Positions 33,255 through 42,188 of a DNA stretch of 64,000 nt are shown here, piece by piece. Origin of the DNA: Bryobacterales bacterium (GTDB taxonomy: Bacteria; Acidobacteriota; Terriglobia; Bryobacterales; Bryobacteraceae); NCBI GenBank assembly GCA_020846745.1, contig JADLDI010000077.1:61674-125673 (forward strand), given 5' to 3'. Numbering within the stretch: the stretch's first letter is position 1; every line of letters starts with the position of its first letter. The notes beneath the pieces were generated by a model. It had not been told where the DNA came from, did no database searches, and saw only the letters and a list, made by a program, of their open reading frames with translations. Position numbers and translations under genes: made by a program.

Positions 33255-34757
33255 ATGACCTTATTCGGCCGTGCGGTATGGGTGTGGCTACTGGTAGCAG
33301 TCGTGCAAGGGGCGCCACTGGACAAACTAGCCGCGGGCGTGTCGGAGTTCACGCTCGCCAATGGCCTTCGCGTGATCGTGTTGGAACGCCATGCCACGCC
33401 TGTCGTCGCTTTCCATTTACGGTCGCGAATGGGCAGCGCGGACGAGCCACCGGGAAAGAGCGGTGTCAGCCTGATGGTGGAAACCATGTTCTTCCGGGGC
33501 GGCGAGTTGACGGGCAGTACAGACCCGGCGACTGAGTCCAGCACGCTGGCCAAGGCGGAGGAGTGGTTCGACCAGCGGGACGCGGAACTGGCCCGTGGCT
33601 CTGCGGCCAACCTATTGACAGCTCAGGATTACAAGCTGAAGGCCAGAGTGCTGATCGACAGCGTCTCCCGGCTGGGAGTGGAGGCGGCCGTCGCACGCGG
33701 ATTTGCGATCAATCAGTTCGAAAACGTCGGGTTCCACGTACGGGCAGACTCCACCGATCTCGCCGCCACCGGTCCAGCCAATCGTGCCGAACTGTGGTTC
33801 CGCCTTGTAGGCGACTGGCTGCAGCGGCCGTCGCTCAGAGGCTATTACGCGGATCGGGAGAACCTGCAGATGGAACTGGAACAGCGCCAGCGCAATTCGA
33901 TTGTCGCGAAGCTTCACGCCACGCTGCTGCCCGCGGCGTTCGCCACCCAGCCCTACTCAAAGCTCGCCGCCGCTGCCGGCGAGTTGGAGAATGCGCGGGC
34001 GAGAGACGCGGTCGCATTTATTAGAACCGCCTTCAGCGGCAGGAATCTTGTGCTTGCCATTGTCGGCGATATCGGCGTCGACTCTGCCCGCAGCCTGGCT
34101 GAGACCTACTTTGGGAAGCTGCCCGCCGGCACGTCCCCCGATTGGAAGCCCTCTGAGCCGCAGTTGCTGCAGACGGAAAAGAGGCTCCAGTTGACCGACG
34201 ACAACGAATCGATATGGTCCGTTTCGTGGTTGCGGCCAAGCCGTGGCCATGCGGACGATGTCGCGTTTGACGTAATGGCGGCGCTCCTCAATGGCGACGC
34301 CGAGGCGCCGCTGCGCAGGGAACTCATGGGCGATCGTCCGCTGGCAAACCACATCCAGGTAACGCCGGCGTTTCCGTCAGACCGGTTCGGATCGCTATTC
34401 TCGATCGTCGTGGCGCCATCGCTCGGGGCGGATCCGAAAGAGATTGAAGCCGCGGTCCAGCGCGCAATCAAAAGCTTGGCTGAACAACCGGTGGATGCGG
34501 CAGCTTTGGCGAGCGCCAAGACACGCATTGAGGCAAAAGTATTTCAGGATTTCAGCAGCCATGCCGGTTTGGCGCACTTCCTCGCTCGAACGAGTTCCGA
34601 CAACGGAAGTACGGCCCGGTTTGCCGCCACCTATGCCACGATTCAAAGCATCGGTGCTGAGGCGGTTCAGAAGTTGGCGGTTCGGTATTTAAAGGATAGC
34701 CAACGTATCGTGGTGAGCGGCGGGCAAGGCCAAGGCACAACCGGAGACGCCGAATGA
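33255..34757 (+). CDS. Secreted M16-family protein lacking the HxxEH zinc motif
   Basis: 500-residue M16B-like (processing-peptidase-like) protein with a signal peptide (VWVWLLVAVVQGA). The N-terminal strand FTLANGLRVIVLERHATPVVAFHLR is typical M16. Where active members have HxxEH, this protein has G-V-S-L-M-V-E-T-M-F-F-R-G-G: the two zinc His become Leu73 and Thr77, and only Glu76 remains. It should therefore be catalytically dead. The second half (RLQLTDDNESIWSVSWLRPSRGH and later) resembles the M16 C-terminal domain. It overlaps the next gene by ATGA. M16 proteins usually pair as one active and one inactive chain, but the partner here is also degenerate. Confidence 0.88.
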   Translation: MTLFGRAVWVWLLVAVVQGAPLDKLAAGVSEFTLANGLRVIVLERHATPVVAFHLRSRMGSADEPPGKSGVSLMVETMFFRGGELTGSTDPATESSTLAKAEEWFDQRDAELARGSAANLLTAQDYKLKARVLIDSVSRLGVEAAVARGFAINQFENVGFHVRADSTDLAATGPANRAELWFRLVGDWLQRPSLRGYYADRENLQMELEQRQRNSIVAKLHATLLPAAFATQPYSKLAAAAGELENARARDAVAFIRTAFSGRNLVLAIVGDIGVDSARSLAETYFGKLPAGTSPDWKPSEPQLLQTEKRLQLTDDNESIWSVSWLRPSRGHADDVAFDVMAALLNGDAEAPLRRELMGDRPLANHIQVTPAFPSDRFGSLFSIVVAPSLGADPKEIEAAVQRAIKSLAEQPVDAAALASAKTRIEAKVFQDFSSHAGLAHFLARTSSDNGSTARFAATYATIQSIGAEAVQKLAVRYLKDSQRIVVSGGQGQGTTGDAE

Positions 34758-36994
34758 GGTGCTCAGTAGCGTGGCTGGCATGTGCTCTCGCGCTGGCCCA
34801 GGTTCCCGCACAGAAGAAATCGGCAGAGAAGCAGCCCGCAGAGAAGAAGCCGGCTGCCAAGAACGCCAAGGCCGCGAAAGTGGCCGCCACGTCAGAGGCC
34901 TCCAGTTCCGTGGCAAAGAGCGTGGCAACCCGGCCGGCGCCGAAGAAGGAAGCCCGGCCGTTCGACGCGCAGTTTGGGTTGTCCTTACCCGCGCCGCGGC
35001 CCCTGCGCCTGCCCGGCGGCGACCGATGGCAGCTTTCGAACGGCCTACGTGTGGTGGTGTTGCCGGAACCGAAAATCCCAATCGTACAGGCTACGCTCGT
35101 TGTGGCAGCCGGTTCACTGGCCGACCCAGCCGAAAAGGCCGGGTTGGCGGATATAACCGCCAAAGCCCTGCGCGGGGGCGGTTCAGTCAACTTCGCGGGC
35201 GTGAAGTTCGATCGGGAGTTGAACGGCCTTGGGGCCTCGCTCAACGTGAAGGCACAGGAGCGCGTCACCGCCTGTACGCTTACGGCGCCGAGCGATCGTT
35301 TTGGCAAAGCGGCCGTGCTGCTGGCCGACATCGTCCTGAATCCCGGGTTCGATCCCGACGCGTTCGATCTGGTGCGCGGTGAACTGCGGAGCCAGATCGG
35401 TAAGCGGAACGAGCTTGCCGACCAAATTGCCAACCGTGAGTTTTGGCGGATAGTGTATGGCCCCAACAACCCGTCGGCGAGGCGCATGGAATACGAACAC
35501 CTCGACAATATCGGGCCGGAGGACGCTGACCTGTTCTACTCCACCTACTACCGTCCAGGCACAGCGGTTCTGATCATCCACGGGGATATTGAAACAGCAT
35601 CCGCGAAGCAGCTGGTCGATCGCTTGTTCTCATCCTGGAAGCCGGGCAAGGCGGAGATTAAGGCGCCCGCCCCGGGTGCTCAGCCAAAGCCGGGAGTATA
35701 CCTGGCCGACAAGAAAGACGCACCAATGAGCGCGGTGGTAATGGGCTTTGCCGTTCCGCCCGCTACCGCCAGGCAAACCGCTGCCGCCGGCGTCGCCATC
35801 GAGATCGTGGCCGGGGGCCCCGGCAGCCGGTTGGAACCGGTGCTGCGGGATAAGAAGGCTTGGGAGGCCGTTGCGGTCGCGCGCTGGATAGCGAACGATA
35901 ACCAGCCCGGGGCTCTCCAGTTTACCGGGCGGTGCAAGCCGGCCTACACCACCGATATGATCCAGGCTGTTTTGCGGGAGTTCGACGGCGTCAAGAGTGT
36001 GCCGTTCACGGAAACTGAGGTGCGCGACGCCTCCGCAAGGCTACTGGCCCGCGGCGTGATGCAGTGGCAAAACCCGGGGTTGTTATTGGCCGAGAACGAA
36101 GCTCACGCGGTGATTGAAGGGCGAAACTCCTATGTGCCCGACGAGCAGGCTGAAATCGCGGCCGTTACCCGCGAACAGGCGGTCGCCGCATTCAACGAAC
36201 TGTGGAAGCCATCTAACCTTGTCATCACCGTAGTGGGAAGTCCCACATTGTTCGACCATCCTCTAGCCGACCTGAATCGGCCCGTCGAACTCATCGACCT
36301 TACGATTCCGCCTCCCCCTCCCTTGCAGCCCAGAACCGACCCGGACAGCCTTTCCCGCGGCAAACAATGGCTCGAGCGTATTCAAGCGGCCATGGGCGGA
36401 ACCGATCGCTTGAAGGCCGTGAAAGACTTCATGATGGCAAGCGAAGGCAGCTATTGGCGTGGCCGCTCGACTACCTCTATCAAACAAACAGACTGGTGGA
36501 TGGCACCGGGCGTTTTCAGGCAGCACCAGGCGATCCCCATCGGAGAAGTAACCGCTTTTTACGACGGCGCTATCGGTTGGCTCGGGCGCGAACGGTTCAT
36601 TGCAGCCATGCCGCCGAATACGCTGCGGCAGGTCCGGACCGAGATCTTCCAACTGTTGTTCACGCTGGTGCAAAGCAACCATATGCCAGACCGCACCGTC
36701 TGTTCATTAGGGGCGAACATTGTCCAGGTCACTGACGATAAAGGACAGGGTGTACGCCTCTATATCAACGAGAAGACGGCGCTCCCCTCACGCGTTGCCT
36801 ATCTCTCGGTTCAGCCTGGGGGCGAGTCGATCATGGTGGAGCAGACCTACGAGGATTGGCGCGAGTACGATGGCATAAAAATGCCGACCACATACCGCAT
36901 CCGGCACAATGGACATAAGTTTACCGACATGCGAGTGACCGCACTTAAGTTCAATAGCGGCTTGAAAGTTAAGGACTTGGAGCGCAAACCGTGA
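34754..36994 (+). CDS. Secreted M16-family protein, zinc motif lost, fused to a LolA-like C-terminal domain
   Basis: 746 residues: signal peptide, a Lys/Ala-rich low-complexity linker (about residues 20-70), M16-like N and C domains (WQLSNGLRVVVLPEPKIP ... RPGTAVLIIHGDIETASAKQLVDRLFSSW; about 80-510), then about 220 residues opening with AMGGTDRLKAVKDFMM that look like an outer-membrane lipoprotein-sorting (LolA/LolB-like) beta fold. The zinc-motif position reads G-L-A-D-I-T-A-K-A-L-R-G-G-G: Asp133, Ala136 and Lys137 replace His, Glu and His. Catalysis is unlikely. It is translationally coupled to the genes on both sides (ATGA and GTGA overlaps), pointing to one complex in the periplasm. Confidence 0.87.
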   Translation: MRCSVAWLACALALAQVPAQKKSAEKQPAEKKPAAKNAKAAKVAATSEASSSVAKSVATRPAPKKEARPFDAQFGLSLPAPRPLRLPGGDRWQLSNGLRVVVLPEPKIPIVQATLVVAAGSLADPAEKAGLADITAKALRGGGSVNFAGVKFDRELNGLGASLNVKAQERVTACTLTAPSDRFGKAAVLLADIVLNPGFDPDAFDLVRGELRSQIGKRNELADQIANREFWRIVYGPNNPSARRMEYEHLDNIGPEDADLFYSTYYRPGTAVLIIHGDIETASAKQLVDRLFSSWKPGKAEIKAPAPGAQPKPGVYLADKKDAPMSAVVMGFAVPPATARQTAAAGVAIEIVAGGPGSRLEPVLRDKKAWEAVAVARWIANDNQPGALQFTGRCKPAYTTDMIQAVLREFDGVKSVPFTETEVRDASARLLARGVMQWQNPGLLLAENEAHAVIEGRNSYVPDEQAEIAAVTREQAVAAFNELWKPSNLVITVVGSPTLFDHPLADLNRPVELIDLTIPPPPPLQPRTDPDSLSRGKQWLERIQAAMGGTDRLKAVKDFMMASEGSYWRGRSTTSIKQTDWWMAPGVFRQHQAIPIGEVTAFYDGAIGWLGRERFIAAMPPNTLRQVRTEIFQLLFTLVQSNHMPDRTVCSLGANIVQVTDDKGQGVRLYINEKTALPSRVAYLSVQPGGESIMVEQTYEDWREYDGIKMPTTYRIRHNGHKFTDMRVTALKFNSGLKVKDLERKP

Positions 36995-37794
36995 CCCGGC
37001 GTGAAGCCTTTACCGCGCTGATTGGCGCACCGGCAGTATGGGCGCAGCCGTCCCAAAAGGAGCAGAAAGGCCGTGAGTTGTTCGCCGCCACCTTACAGGC
37101 GGTTGGGGGCAATGCCTTTTTGGGAATGCAGGACCGGACAGAAAGCGGGCGCGCCTACTCCTTCTATCGCGACCGCCTGACCGGGTTGGCCCGAGCCACC
37201 ATTTACACTCGCTACGTCACCGCGCCCCCCACGCCGGAACCGAACAAGATCTATCAACGGGAGCGCCAGGCGTTCGGCAAGGACAAGGATTACGCTGTCC
37301 TGTTCGACGAAGACAAGGGTTACTCGATTACATTCCGCGGAGCGGCCCCCCTGCCGGACGCCAATCTGACCCGCTATCGCGAGAGCACCAGGCGTAACTT
37401 CTTCTACATCCTGCGGCAGCGGCGCGACGAACCGGGGTTGATCCTTGAGCATCAGGGATCGAAGATTTTTGAAAACGCGCCGGTCGACGTTCTCGACATT
37501 ACGGACTCTGATAACGTTACCGTCAGCGTCATGATCCATCAGGGTACGAAGTTGCCGGTCCGGCAAGTCTTCTATCGGCGCGACCCCGCCACTCGCGACC
37601 GTCTCGAAGAGGTCACCCTGTTCAACAAGTACCGCGAAGTGTCCGGAATTCAGTGGCCCTGGTCCATCACACGCTTCCGCAACGGCGAGAAGATCTTTGA
37701 GATCTTTTCGGATTCGGTCAGCATCAACTCCGGGCTAAGCGATCAGTTGTTCACCCTGCCGGCGAACATGAAAGTATTGCCGCCACCCAAGTAG
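36991..37794 (+). CDS. Exported LolA-like beta-fold protein, partner of the M16 pair
   Basis: 267 residues starting at GTG 36991, with the start overlapping the previous stop by 4 bp. It begins with a Tat-like leader (TRREAFTALIGAPAVWAQ). The rest is strand-rich: QAVGGNAFLGMQDRTESGRAY, VDVLDITDSDNVTVSVMIHQ, LPVRQVFYRRDPATRDRLEEV and a C-terminal QLFTLPANMKVLPPPK. That order (AVGG near the N-terminus, a D-substrate strand, KLPVR..., FNKYREVSGIQWPWSIT) matches the C-terminal part of the 746-aa neighbour, so the two may be related copies. A LolA-like lipid or lipoprotein handling role is an inference. Confidence 0.75.
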   Translation: MTRREAFTALIGAPAVWAQPSQKEQKGRELFAATLQAVGGNAFLGMQDRTESGRAYSFYRDRLTGLARATIYTRYVTAPPTPEPNKIYQRERQAFGKDKDYAVLFDEDKGYSITFRGAAPLPDANLTRYRESTRRNFFYILRQRRDEPGLILEHQGSKIFENAPVDVLDITDSDNVTVSVMIHQGTKLPVRQVFYRRDPATRDRLEEVTLFNKYREVSGIQWPWSITRFRNGEKIFEIFSDSVSINSGLSDQLFTLPANMKVLPPPK

Positions 37795-37797
37795 CCA

Positions 37798-38328
37798 ATG
37801 GTAATCACGCGCGAAGATCTGGACAGTCCCATTGGGGTCGTTTCGATTCTCAGCTTCGAAGGCGCCGTAATCGCCTTGGATTTCGCTGACTGCGAGGAAC
37901 GCATGCTCCGTCTGCTCGGCCGCGGTTGGGGCGTGTGCGAACTGCGGGTCCAGCTAACGGTTTCTGACCATCGCCGGAGGATCGACGACTATTTCACCGG
38001 CGACTTGGCGGCCCTCGATTCCATCCGCACCGAGACACGCGGCACCGCCTTTCAGCAAGCCGTCTGGGCGGCACTCCGCGAAATCCCGCCCGGAACCGCG
38101 TGGAGCTATCTCGACCTCGCAAGGCGCATTGGCAACGAAAAGGCTGTGCGGGCGGTCGGGGCGGCAAACGGGCAGAATCCAATCGCGATCGTTCACCCCT
38201 GCCACCGTGTGGTAGCAACCAGCCACGCCCTCACCGGCTATGCCGGCGGCCTGCACCGCAAGCAGTGGCTACTCGATCACGAGCGGTCGAATTCTTGCTG
38301 GACACCAAGCGGACCGCTTTTCGCATAA
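37798..38328 (+). CDS. ogt: Methylated-DNA--[protein]-cysteine S-methyltransferase
   Basis: 176-residue suicide DNA-repair protein that takes alkyl groups from O6-alkylguanine onto its own cysteine. The C-terminal domain has the DNA-binding FQQAVWAALREIPPGTAWSYLDLARRIG segment, AVRAVGAANGQNP and the active-site PCHRV motif with Cys135. The N-terminal domain lacks the Ada zinc-cysteine set, so this is a stand-alone Ogt type. It starts 3 bp after the LolA-like gene. Its last 52 bp overlap a small membrane-protein gene on the other strand. Confidence 0.95.
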   Translation: MVITREDLDSPIGVVSILSFEGAVIALDFADCEERMLRLLGRGWGVCELRVQLTVSDHRRRIDDYFTGDLAALDSIRTETRGTAFQQAVWAALREIPPGTAWSYLDLARRIGNEKAVRAVGAANGQNPIAIVHPCHRVVATSHALTGYAGGLHRKQWLLDHERSNSCWTPSGPLFA

Positions 38329-38687: not shown

Positions 38688-40964
38688 TCACTCCCGTTCA
38701 ATGTGAGGTGAGCGGATCTGGGTTAAGCGAAATCCGAAGTCCGGCGGGCGGTGAAACACCGGCACCTGCGACAGGCGAAGGTAGGTCCGCACCTCGTACC
38801 GGCTGTTCTTGAACGATCCGCCTCGCAGCGAGCAAACATCACGCCCGGCGTTCGGCCGTTCCACAAACTCCCATAAATTCCCGGCCATGTCGTAAACGCC
38901 GAAGGGGCTTGCGCCGCCGGCATACCGGGTAACCTCCGACGTGCCGTTGATAGCCGACTCTGCCGAGTTGCAAAGCGAGGCGTCGAAGGCATCGCCCCAC
39001 GGATAAATCAAGCCCGCATCGCCGCGGGCCGAGTACTCCCAAAGCTCATCGGCAGGCAGCATCCACGTCCAAGGTTCGCAGGGCGAGACAGACTGGCACC
39101 ACCGAACAAAGGCGCGCGCCTCCAAGATACTGATTCCGGTGACCGGATGATCGAGTTTCCCTTCCGGAACCGTTCTGCCGTTTAGCCAGATCGCCGGTCC
39201 GCGAGTCTTGCCATCTTGCGTGAAAAACGATTTCCGCGCCCCGGGCATCTCCCAAAACTGATCGCTTTCGTACCCGCCGTCCGCCACGAACTGTTGAAAC
39301 AGCCGGTTGGTGACAAGACACTGCGCAATCCGGAAGCTGCGCGGCAGGGAAATGTAGTGCGATTCAAGCGACGTCACGTACGGCCCGTGTTGTTCTGAGA
39401 CATCCTGGTAAGTGACCGTTGGGTTCGAGGGGCGGACCTCCAGCATCACCACAGGCGCATCCTGAATTTGTTGGGCGATCTTCTCGGGCTCTGTTTTCCA
39501 GCCGGAGGAAAACGGCGTGGGCGTAGAACCAAGAATCTGGTGAGCCAGTACCCACCGGCCCGGATCGTCTGGAGTGATCGTCTGATTCAGTTGGCCGCGG
39601 ATACAGGCGAGCACCCGTTGCCTGGCAGTGGCGTCGAAGTGGCCGAAAATCGACTCACACAGCCGCAGGGCGTGGTACTGCTCGAATGCCGAGCGCGATT
39701 TCCCCACTCCATCCAGCACCATCTCGACGTGTCCCCGCTGCGGTTCCGTTCTGGCCAGGGCCAAACCGGTAATCCGGGCGCCTTCGGTGCCGCGATCGAA
39801 CAACTGCTGCGCGATCTGCCCCGTTTGTTCGGATGGCGCGAGTAGTTGTGAGCGGGCGACCAGATTCGTCATCAGCACCGTCCGCGATGCGCCGGGCTGC
39901 ATATTTGCCCGAATCTGTTCGTACTCTTCGCCAATCAACTCCATATCCTGCAGACAGGTAGTGGAAGTGCGGCCGTGGAAGGCGAGTTGTCCTCGCCTGC
40001 GCCGTTCCTCATCCATGGGTTCGGCCGGAGGTGCGTTGCCCGTCAGATGCGAGGTGAGTAGTTCTACTCCCGATAGTAGCGAGTGCGTCTCGCGCGGCCT
40101 GTCCCGAAACACGGCCAGGATTTCCTCGTAGGAGTAGTAGGGCTGATAGGGTATTTCAGCACTTCCCCAATATACGTCCGTTGCATCCGGTCCAAGGTGC
40201 GAAAAACAAGAACTGAACCGGGTTCGAGCAAGTGCCCGGGCGCGTTCCAGACGGTCCTTCTCGGCAAACTCGACACGCATCGGCACCGGCCAGACCTTCA
40301 GCGTTTGCTGCCCATCCACTGTCGTGCGCTGCTGAACGGCAGAATAGGCCGCGGCCGCGGCGCCGTATATGCTCTGACGGTTAAGCGTAAAGCAGATCAC
40401 CAACTCGTCCGGCAGTTGGACGGTGCAGACTCCAGAAGTATCGCTAACGCCCGTCCGGCTGTCGATCAGAATGTAATCGTAGTGCTCGCGGGCCAGTTGG
40501 CGCATGCTCTCCAGCATCACGCCACCCCCGAGCTTCTCGTAAAAGCGCTCCCAGTCGAACGAGTTGACTCGCACGGCATACGCACTGTCCTGCCGCCCTG
40601 CCGGCACGAAGTGTAGTGCGCCTTCCCGCGGGAAGTCGTACCGAACAGGCATTGCGTGAATCAGGATATTCGAATAGGGCAGAAACCAGTCCCGCTGCCG
40701 GGTCGCCGCCAAATCGGTCACCGCCGCCGTCGCGAACTCCAAAACAAAATCGACTACGCCCGTCGAGTGCTCCAGAGTCCTGTCATCCAGGAAAGGCTCA
40801 AAGTATCGGTGCAGCCCAGGAGCCTCCAAGTCCCAATCGACGGCAAGAACTCGATTGCCCGCCATCGCCAGAAGCCATGCCACGTTGGCCAATGCCATCG
40901 AGCGGCCGGTACCCCCCTTGTAGGAGTAAAAGGTGACGATTTTCGCTGAACGGCGAGTGCTCAT
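38688..40964 (-). CDS. KGGTGR-variant P-loop ATPase fused to a SUMF1/FGE-sulfatase-like domain
   Basis: 758 residues in three parts. Residues 8-300 are a ParA/MinD-like SIMIBI ATPase with the deviant P-loop YSYKGGTGRSMALAN, where Arg21 takes the place of the usual Lys, plus VDWDLEAPG and the Walker-B-like YILIDSRTG. Residues about 320-480 are helical, with EEYEQIRANMQPG, RTVLMTNLVA and AFEQYHALRL, a pattern seen in bacterial conflict-system proteins. Residues 535-750 are a SUMF1-like C-type-lectin fold (RIAQCLVTNRLFQQFV, LPADELWEYSARG, YPWGD, VYDMAGNLWEFVE, LRGGSF). The FGE cysteines after GGSF are absent (KNSRYEVRTY), so formylglycine formation is unlikely. It starts 3 bp after the TIR/FxsC gene; the two form one operon. 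Confidence 0.85.
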   Translation of the reverse strand: MSTRRSAKIVTFYSYKGGTGRSMALANVAWLLAMAGNRVLAVDWDLEAPGLHRYFEPFLDDRTLEHSTGVVDFVLEFATAAVTDLAATRQRDWFLPYSNILIHAMPVRYDFPREGALHFVPAGRQDSAYAVRVNSFDWERFYEKLGGGVMLESMRQLAREHYDYILIDSRTGVSDTSGVCTVQLPDELVICFTLNRQSIYGAAAAAYSAVQQRTTVDGQQTLKVWPVPMRVEFAEKDRLERARALARTRFSSCFSHLGPDATDVYWGSAEIPYQPYYSYEEILAVFRDRPRETHSLLSGVELLTSHLTGNAPPAEPMDEERRRRGQLAFHGRTSTTCLQDMELIGEEYEQIRANMQPGASRTVLMTNLVARSQLLAPSEQTGQIAQQLFDRGTEGARITGLALARTEPQRGHVEMVLDGVGKSRSAFEQYHALRLCESIFGHFDATARQRVLACIRGQLNQTITPDDPGRWVLAHQILGSTPTPFSSGWKTEPEKIAQQIQDAPVVMLEVRPSNPTVTYQDVSEQHGPYVTSLESHYISLPRSFRIAQCLVTNRLFQQFVADGGYESDQFWEMPGARKSFFTQDGKTRGPAIWLNGRTVPEGKLDHPVTGISILEARAFVRWCQSVSPCEPWTWMLPADELWEYSARGDAGLIYPWGDAFDASLCNSAESAINGTSEVTRYAGGASPFGVYDMAGNLWEFVERPNAGRDVCSLRGGSFKNSRYEVRTYLRLSQVPVFHRPPDFGFRLTQIRSPHIERE

Positions 40965-40967
40965 CTT

Positions 40968-42188
40968 CTATGCCGCCGATGGTGCGTTCAGTTGGGGCAC
41001 CACGTCCAGCCGCACGCCTTTTTGTTCCGCATCCTTCTCCAGAGCGGAATCCTCAGCCTTTGTAACCACGGCAGTATCGCTGCTTAGTACCTTCTTGAGC
41101 AGTTGACCGCGGATTGATTCGATCACCGCCGCCGAGCGGGCTTTCAGATCCTCCGGACTGACCGTAGTAAGCCAATCGTGGTGTGGCGGAGGGACGATTG
41201 CTTTCTGCGGGCAAACCGTACGCTGAATGTGGAGCCATCGCGCGTCGGTAGCCGGCGGCGGAGTTGCCCCTTCCCAAGCGACAATCAGTCCACAATTCAA
41301 AAAGTAGACCTGGTCGTAGCGTTTCAAAGCGGTCTCAAACGGTTGCAACGATGCGCTGGAAGGATCTGCAAAGACAACTGTCGGCACATCGTGTTCGAGC
41401 GTATCGCGAAGGCGGTCTGGCAATTCCGCATCGCACGGCAGTTCTTCATAGCGCAACCCGAGTTGGCCGCTGACTGCTTGCGCCAGCGCTCCTATCGCCG
41501 GCTCGCCCGGGTATGGCTTCCAATCCCAACCGTCACGGGCCGCGAAAACAAAGCACGTCTTCGTGATTCCTCCCTTCTTGTGTGACGTTGGGTCCGATCT
41601 GATCGCAACATCCCAAGCCGACGGCTGTTTCTTAAGATCGAGTTTTTGAAGCGGTGGAAGATTGTCCGACTGGATTGCCGCGGCAATACGGCGTGCAAGC
41701 GCGCTCACGACTTTGAAGAAATCTGAAGGTGCTCCGACGTTCATTACTTGCCTCAGGCCTAGTTGAGGATAAGCCGCCGGAAAATCGTCATCGTGTGTCT
41801 GTATCTTCTCAAGCGGGGCAGGAAGCCCTTTTAACAGGGGCATCCAAATAACCGGAATAATCGCTGCCGGTTTCTGTGGACCAGGGGCCGCCGCCGCACG
41901 GTCCAGGAAGACGCCCACTTCCTTGCCGCACCAACTGCTGTTGAAGTAGTTAGGTGAGTACAGGCAAACCGCCGCCTTTGCGCTGCACAGGCTGTCCGCA
42001 AGTACAGCCGGCCACTCCGCGCCGGCTTCGATGTCCGTGGAATCGAAAAAGCAGGTGTCGCCCCCCGCCGCACCGAGTAATTGATCGACTTCGGCCTCCA
42101 GGGCCTCGCGGAACCTCCGCATCAGCTCGGAATCGGCCGCCCACTTCGTGTTCGCCCTTGCATAGCTGAAGAAGTACCGCTGAGACAT
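40968..42188 (-). CDS. TIR-domain protein with FxsC-like C-terminal domain
   Basis: 406 residues. The N-terminal 165 residues are a TIR-type domain: RYFFSYARANTKW at the start, DTCFFDSTDIEAGAEWPAVLADSL, then CLYSPNYFNSSWCGKEVGVFL, whose Trp86 and Glu90 match the S-x-W-C-x-x-E signature carrying the catalytic Glu of TIR NADases. The C-terminal part (about 205-370) resembles the FxsC domain of the actinobacterial FxSxx-COOH system: TCFVFAARDGWDWKPYPGEP, LGLRYEELPCDAELPDRL, VPTVVFADP and VYFLNCGLIVAWEG. No signal peptide. First gene of a two-gene operon with the ATPase-SUMF1 protein; divergent from the M14 gene with 68 bp between starts. NADase activity is inferred. Confidence 0.82.
   Translation of the reverse strand: MSQRYFFSYARANTKWAADSELMRRFREALEAEVDQLLGAAGGDTCFFDSTDIEAGAEWPAVLADSLCSAKAAVCLYSPNYFNSSWCGKEVGVFLDRAAAAPGPQKPAAIIPVIWMPLLKGLPAPLEKIQTHDDDFPAAYPQLGLRQVMNVGAPSDFFKVVSALARRIAAAIQSDNLPPLQKLDLKKQPSAWDVAIRSDPTSHKKGGITKTCFVFAARDGWDWKPYPGEPAIGALAQAVSGQLGLRYEELPCDAELPDRLRDTLEHDVPTVVFADPSSASLQPFETALKRYDQVYFLNCGLIVAWEGATPPPATDARWLHIQRTVCPQKAIVPPPHHDWLTTVSPEDLKARSAAVIESIRGQLLKKVLSSDTAVVTKAEDSALEKDAEQKGVRLDVVPQLNAPSAA

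Follow-up and report, generated by a model that had tools for sequence, protein, structure and literature searches.

Relation to Known M16B Pairs

The known bacterial M16B heterodimers SPH2681/SPH2682, TTHA1264/1265, and PA0371/0372 are encoded by two adjacent genes whose products each adopt the M16 fold, and they keep one chain that carries the HxxEH zinc motif. In M16 enzymes an Arg/Tyr pair contributed by the other half completes the active site (PMC12731061). Losses of catalytic motifs among peptidases are documented. Core I and Core II of the yeast mitochondrial bc1 complex are an M16B pair in which no HxxEH was detected and which is kept for structural purposes (PMC12731061), and FtsHi, the inactive ADAMs, and alpha-MPP have lost metal ligands while retaining fold and function (PMC11266112).

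The operon analyzed here lies at 33255-37794 of the window, the whole 64,000-nucleotide stretch of DNA under study. It consists of three co-directional genes, A, B, and C, of which A and B encode M16B chains and C encodes a LolA-fold protein. It resembles the bacterial heterodimers in several respects: the genes are adjacent, A is predicted to fold like 3ami_A, and B matches the inactive subunit 3amj_B. In contrast to those heterodimers, however, the operon has neither an HxxEH chain nor the tyrosine of the Arg/Tyr (R/Y) pair, and it has an additional LolA-like domain in B and a third gene, C. The window pair varies on the bacterial M16B theme: two catalytic hallmarks of the family are absent.

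Absence of the zinc motif from both chains is shared with the bc1 cores. The cores are eukaryotic and belong to a respiratory complex, whereas the window pair is bacterial, exported, and encoded beside a LolA-like protein, and it represents a separate loss within a family of active bacterial proteases. Because A and B have signal-peptide-like N termini and LolA-like partners, they are unlikely to be subunits of a respiratory complex. The reviewed pseudopeptidases (FtsHi, inactive ADAMs, alpha-MPP) are likewise eukaryotic, while here loss recurs within one bacterial family and, unlike in those examples, affects both subunits of a composite site. Searches of a library of open-access papers turned up no report of a bacterial M16B pair without HxxEH in either chain.

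Architecture of the Operon

33255..34757 (+), A: exported M16B protein, ortholog of the usually active subunit, zinc motif lost (ORF, PF05193, predicted fold)
34754..36994 (+), B: inactive M16B partner (residues ~90-500) with a LolA-like domain at its C terminus (PF05193, PF00675, 3amj_B match)
36314..36991 (+), C-terminal domain of B (residues ~521-746): LolA-like, homologous to C (C-family profile)
36991..37794 (+), C: exported LolA-superfamily protein (predicted structure, Foldseek)

The original prediction held that the three genes are joined by 4-bp overlaps, and the ORF junctions bear this out, with ATGA shared by A and B and GTGA by B and C. All three products begin with what appear, by eye, to be signal peptides. 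Both of the first two chains have the M16 fold. PF05193 matches A at 4e-20 and B at 4e-24 in Pfam; PF00675 falls just under the cut-off in A and over it in B (9e-11). The AlphaFold model of A (pLDDT 89) has the M16B subunit 3ami_A as its top PDB match (E 1e-30, TM 0.88 by target), and the top PDB sequence match of B is 3amj_B, described as 'zinc peptidase inactive subunit'.

The model of C (pLDDT 92) has a LolA fold, its Foldseek matches being LolA3, a DUF1329 protein, LolA-like proteins, and RseB, with a best E of 5e-10 and TM of 0.5-0.65. C thus shares a predicted fold and a signal-peptide-like N terminus with the LolA superfamily (LolA, LolA3, RseB/MucB, DUF1329), from which it differs in that its sequence finds no match in searches of Pfam or the PDB. 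By fold it is a putative carrier, although a LolA fold at this level (TM by query 0.5-0.6) does not prove lipoprotein carriage. A profile of the C family matches residues 134-219 of the excised C-terminal domain of B (i-E 3e-13). C is present in 226 of 237 genomes of the family, in many of them without an adjoining A-B pair; A and B are therefore dispensable to C.

Loss of the Zinc Site

33471..33485 (+), LMVET (A residues 73-77): in place of HxxEH, aligned to the HMFEH-type motifs of 89/110 orthologs inspected
33873..33875 (+), E207 of A: aligned to the third zinc ligand, Glu (alignment column)
35150..35164 (+), DITAK (B residues 133-137): in place of HxxEH, degenerate in every ortholog read

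Neither HxxEH nor HExxH occurs anywhere in A, B, or C in a motif scan of the three proteins, which rules out a zinc motif shifted to another position, the finding that the original prediction had named as evidence against itself. Its assertion that no zinc site is left in either chain is confirmed, with LMVET and DITAK at the aligned positions. The third ligand is present in A of the window as E207, but it could not form a zinc site because the two histidines are missing. In active A chains this column is always Glu (1.00); in the lost clade described below the fraction is 0.45, and the residue has been lost or changed in several members. The HxxEH position is degenerate in B of every operon read, as expected for an inactive M16B partner. 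In every ortholog seen, the inactive role ordinarily falls to B, so that only the loss in A is unusual. The A-B pair of the window is very probably inactive as a protease.

Recurrence among Orthologs

Sampling of the family covered 237 genomes, and the motif was read in 110 'type 1' A chains, those with B and C behind them. Such A orthologs are spread across the same bacterial family, and most named relatives of the locus come from acidobacterial MAGs assigned to Bryobacterales/Bryobacteraceae. HxxEH is kept in 89 of the 110 chains and missing in 21, which represent certain soil Acidobacteria. The ancestral operon therefore encoded an ordinary M16B protease whose B chain was inactive, and the notion that degenerate motifs are the family norm has to be abandoned. 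The lost motifs are mostly unlike one another (RLFET, QLFER, QLAIG, AKFRG, RLFPR, RMFPR, GLMDN, SMAPL, SLTTL, NLATF, and others).

In a tree of A built with the motif columns removed, eleven lost genomes, the window's included, form one clade of five genera, g1, g10, g24, g32, and g66 (support 100); an earlier A tree included 8 of the 11. Beyond the window the loss is common to a sister genome and to nine genomes in four other genera, and because these ten share it as one clade, chance or local sequencing error is excluded. The best reduced tree of C also keeps the 11-genome group together, at low support and with none of its members on a long branch, and a larger C tree places four active rows among the lost group on weak forks. 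Further losses occurred in g85, g21, g81, and g86, amounting to at least 3-4 additional events. A single origin of all tested lost operons is rejected by the AU test (p 3e-4 for A, 5e-108 for C). By parsimony the trees require 4-6 changes; the exact number is uncertain because dead A chains sit on long branches and the support of several forks is low.

The original prediction had allowed that orthologs might retain HxxEH and that the operon might then represent only local decay. The first is the case, in 89 of 110 chains; the second is ruled out by the 11-genome clade and by purifying selection (below), and independent losses and the co-loss of the B tyrosine also speak against it.

In three genomes A is broken at nearly the same place, residues ~185-237 (G212 C44/C61, G213 C64/C90, G035 C99/C79). 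Gene fission was considered for these and rejected, the breaks being contig ends.

Loss of the R/Y Tyrosine in B

35846..35869 (+), what is left of the R/Y pair in B: R365 retained, Ala instead of Tyr at residue 372 (alignment to VRTxLGYAY of active operons)

B of active operons contains a nearly invariant VRTxLGYAY stretch. We take its R-x6-Y to be the R/Y pair, by analogy with insulin-degrading enzyme and in view of the corresponding segment in 3amj_B. In B of the window the arginine remains and the tyrosine has become Ala. The tyrosine is absent from all 21 lost operons and present in 65 of 68 active ones, an association with HxxEH for which Fisher's test gives p 2e-17 when related genomes are counted separately, with no phylogenetic correction. 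Judged from these alignments, both halves of a composite active site encoded by two genes are lost together in the lineage of the window.

The three active operons without the tyrosine (G248, G249, G251) all belong to g86, whose other genomes have lost HxxEH as well; in this genus the B residue thus seems to have been lost before the HxxEH of A. The g86 loci L123, L149, and L153 are intermediate operons that combine an HMFEH A chain with a B chain devoid of the R/Y tyrosine.

Could A and B still be an enzyme, with a different active or metal site? E207 and R365 do remain in the window copy. There is, however, no alternative zinc signature, almost every member has different residues at the former site, with no new conserved ligand in their place, and the R/Y tyrosine is gone. 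We consider this very improbable.

Selection and Inverted Constraint

Close pairs of dead operons give dN/dS of 0.17-0.21 for A and B, and a more distant dead pair, with dS above 1, gives 0.29-0.34; for C in lost pairs the values are 0.09-0.13. Neutral drift at 0.25 substitutions/site would be expected to leave ~4 stops in A and ~6.5 in B, and none is seen. The low dN/dS and the lack of stops indicate that the A and B genes have been kept.

At the same time the pattern of constraint has inverted. Among active operon pairs the mean distances are.42 for A,.42 for the M16 part of B, and.52 for C, and A exceeds C in 6% of pairs. In the lost clade, by contrast, the M16 parts are far more divergent than C (A.68, B-M16.72, C.40), and A exceeds C in all pairs. 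Given the divergence of C, that of A is in excess by ~6 standard deviations in the main clade and by ~2 in the younger losses; G248, which keeps HxxEH and has lost the tyrosine, also shows an excess of 2. The lost clade retains a fraction of.99 of the columns of C that are conserved in active operons, as against.51 for A and.45 for B. Its fold-critical Gly/Pro columns are invariant, and in the C-terminal domain of B, where few columns are conserved, most of these are kept.

The main rival to a retained function is slow decay, whereby an unneeded M16 pair drifts under weak residual constraint, imposed for example by avoidance of misfolding or by the need to keep C translationally coupled, until it is finally deleted and C is left alone. 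Decay of this kind would account equally well for how far the M16 parts have diverged. The strong relaxation of A and B agrees with decay, as do the many family genomes in which C stands by itself, showing that the pair can be lost, and the stepwise loss in g86, where the tyrosine of B has gone ahead of the HxxEH of A in some genomes. Yet dN/dS is ~0.2, not one stop is found in ~1250 codons across the five-genus clade, the Gly/Pro columns on which the fold depends do not vary, and translational coupling by itself would not require A. Slow decay is a minority possibility, though a serious one, and a selected function after inactivation is probable.

A comparison within a single genome pair serves as an internal control. 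When the window's genome is compared with G032, identity is 28% for the dead A chains, 64% for the active paralogous A chains, and 62% for the C proteins. The paralog belongs to a second, active M16B pair ('type 2'), which in the window's genome (L041 4919-8586; G000:C52) comprises an HMFEH A chain and a B chain with a LolA-like C terminus, and has no separate C.

Type 2 occurs in 21 of 237 family genomes, with an enrichment among those whose type 1 operon is dead or missing. A weaker rival, regulation, would have the dead chains pair or compete with the active type 2 pair and so tune it. In its favor, 11 of the 21 genomes that carry a dead operon have type 2, as against 3 of the 89 whose operon is active. 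However, 10 of those 11 lie in the main clade, so the association is mostly one phylogenetic event and not independent evidence; 10 dead-operon genomes have no type 2; and the dead A and B diverge fast while type 2 is conserved, which argues against a conserved mixed interface. Such regulation is improbable, if less so than persistence of an enzyme.

A Possible Role beside LolA-like Carriers

The best overall explanation, to which we assign a probability of roughly 0.5, is that A and B constitute a non-proteolytic periplasmic M16B clamshell that serves a LolA-like carrier and was selected after loss of the active site. The ancestor would have been an exported M16B protease, with active A and inactive B, built onto a LolA-like module made up of the C-terminal domain of B and of C as a protein of its own. 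The window's lineage has lost the zinc motif of A and the tyrosine of B, and would with them have abandoned proteolysis. A and B may still be made and form the clamshell, acting without cutting as a binding chamber, a scaffold, or a handover site for the LolA-like domains. The conserved activity would lie in those domains, which may carry lipid, lipoprotein, or other hydrophobic cargo. The sequences demonstrate what this reading builds on: the active site was lost repeatedly and from both genes together, the coupled frames are intact and under purifying selection, the M16 parts are relaxed, and C is unchanged. The specific assignment of A and B as accessories of a carrier is slightly less likely than not.

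The original prediction envisaged a conserved complex turned from a protease into a binding, chaperone, or transport assembly. Its conserved operon unit stands, and the unit is most likely a non-protease under selection; the LolA-like partners fit a putative role in binding or transport.

It is possible that cargo is handed over by a permease pair of the MacB/FtsX type. Pairs of MacB_PCD+FtsX permeases immediately precede A-B-C, or C by itself, in loci such as the following.

L066 4398-6883: MacB_PCD+FtsX permease pair
L190 4411-6899: MacB_PCD+FtsX permease pair
L171 8324-10000: MacB_PCD+FtsX permease pair

The two permeases directly precede A in about six genera, in active and dead operons alike, and in two of these genera, where A and B are absent, the pair directly precedes C. 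No ATPase gene adjoining the permease pair was seen in the loci read. Against the preferred explanation, this adjacency is confined to about six genera and does not extend to the window's own genome, where the permease pair is unlinked, on another contig (C87); the occurrence of C without A and B also counts against it. In a fuller proposal, coordinated loss of the two half-sites would repeatedly have converted the M16B clamshell to a non-proteolytic chamber, which would take part in lipid or lipoprotein transfer together with LolA-like carriers and a permease pair of the FtsX/MacB type; as a whole this is rather unlikely.

Implications for Pseudoenzyme Evolution

The states of a single operon within one bacterial family run from active through half-lost (g86) and fully lost to deleted, a natural replicate series for the transition from enzyme to pseudoenzyme in which the halves of a shared active site reside on separate genes. 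The series makes it testable whether the M16 clamshell has a role other than cutting and whether the LolA-like partner is the true core of the system. It also carries a warning, since an M16 annotation in Acidobacteria can name a protein that is not an enzyme.

Neighboring Genes

A gene resembling O6-methylguanine-DNA methyltransferase, 37798-38328 (+), begins 3 bp past C and may be co-transcribed with it; it was not encountered among the conserved neighbors of other loci. Farther along, two adjacent genes occupy 38688-42188 (-). One joins a ParA/MinD-like ATPase (KGGTGR) to an FGE-sulfatase domain and matches the PADLOC candidate PDC-M28B; the other encodes a TIR-domain protein. The fusion and the TIR gene look like a defense or conflict module.
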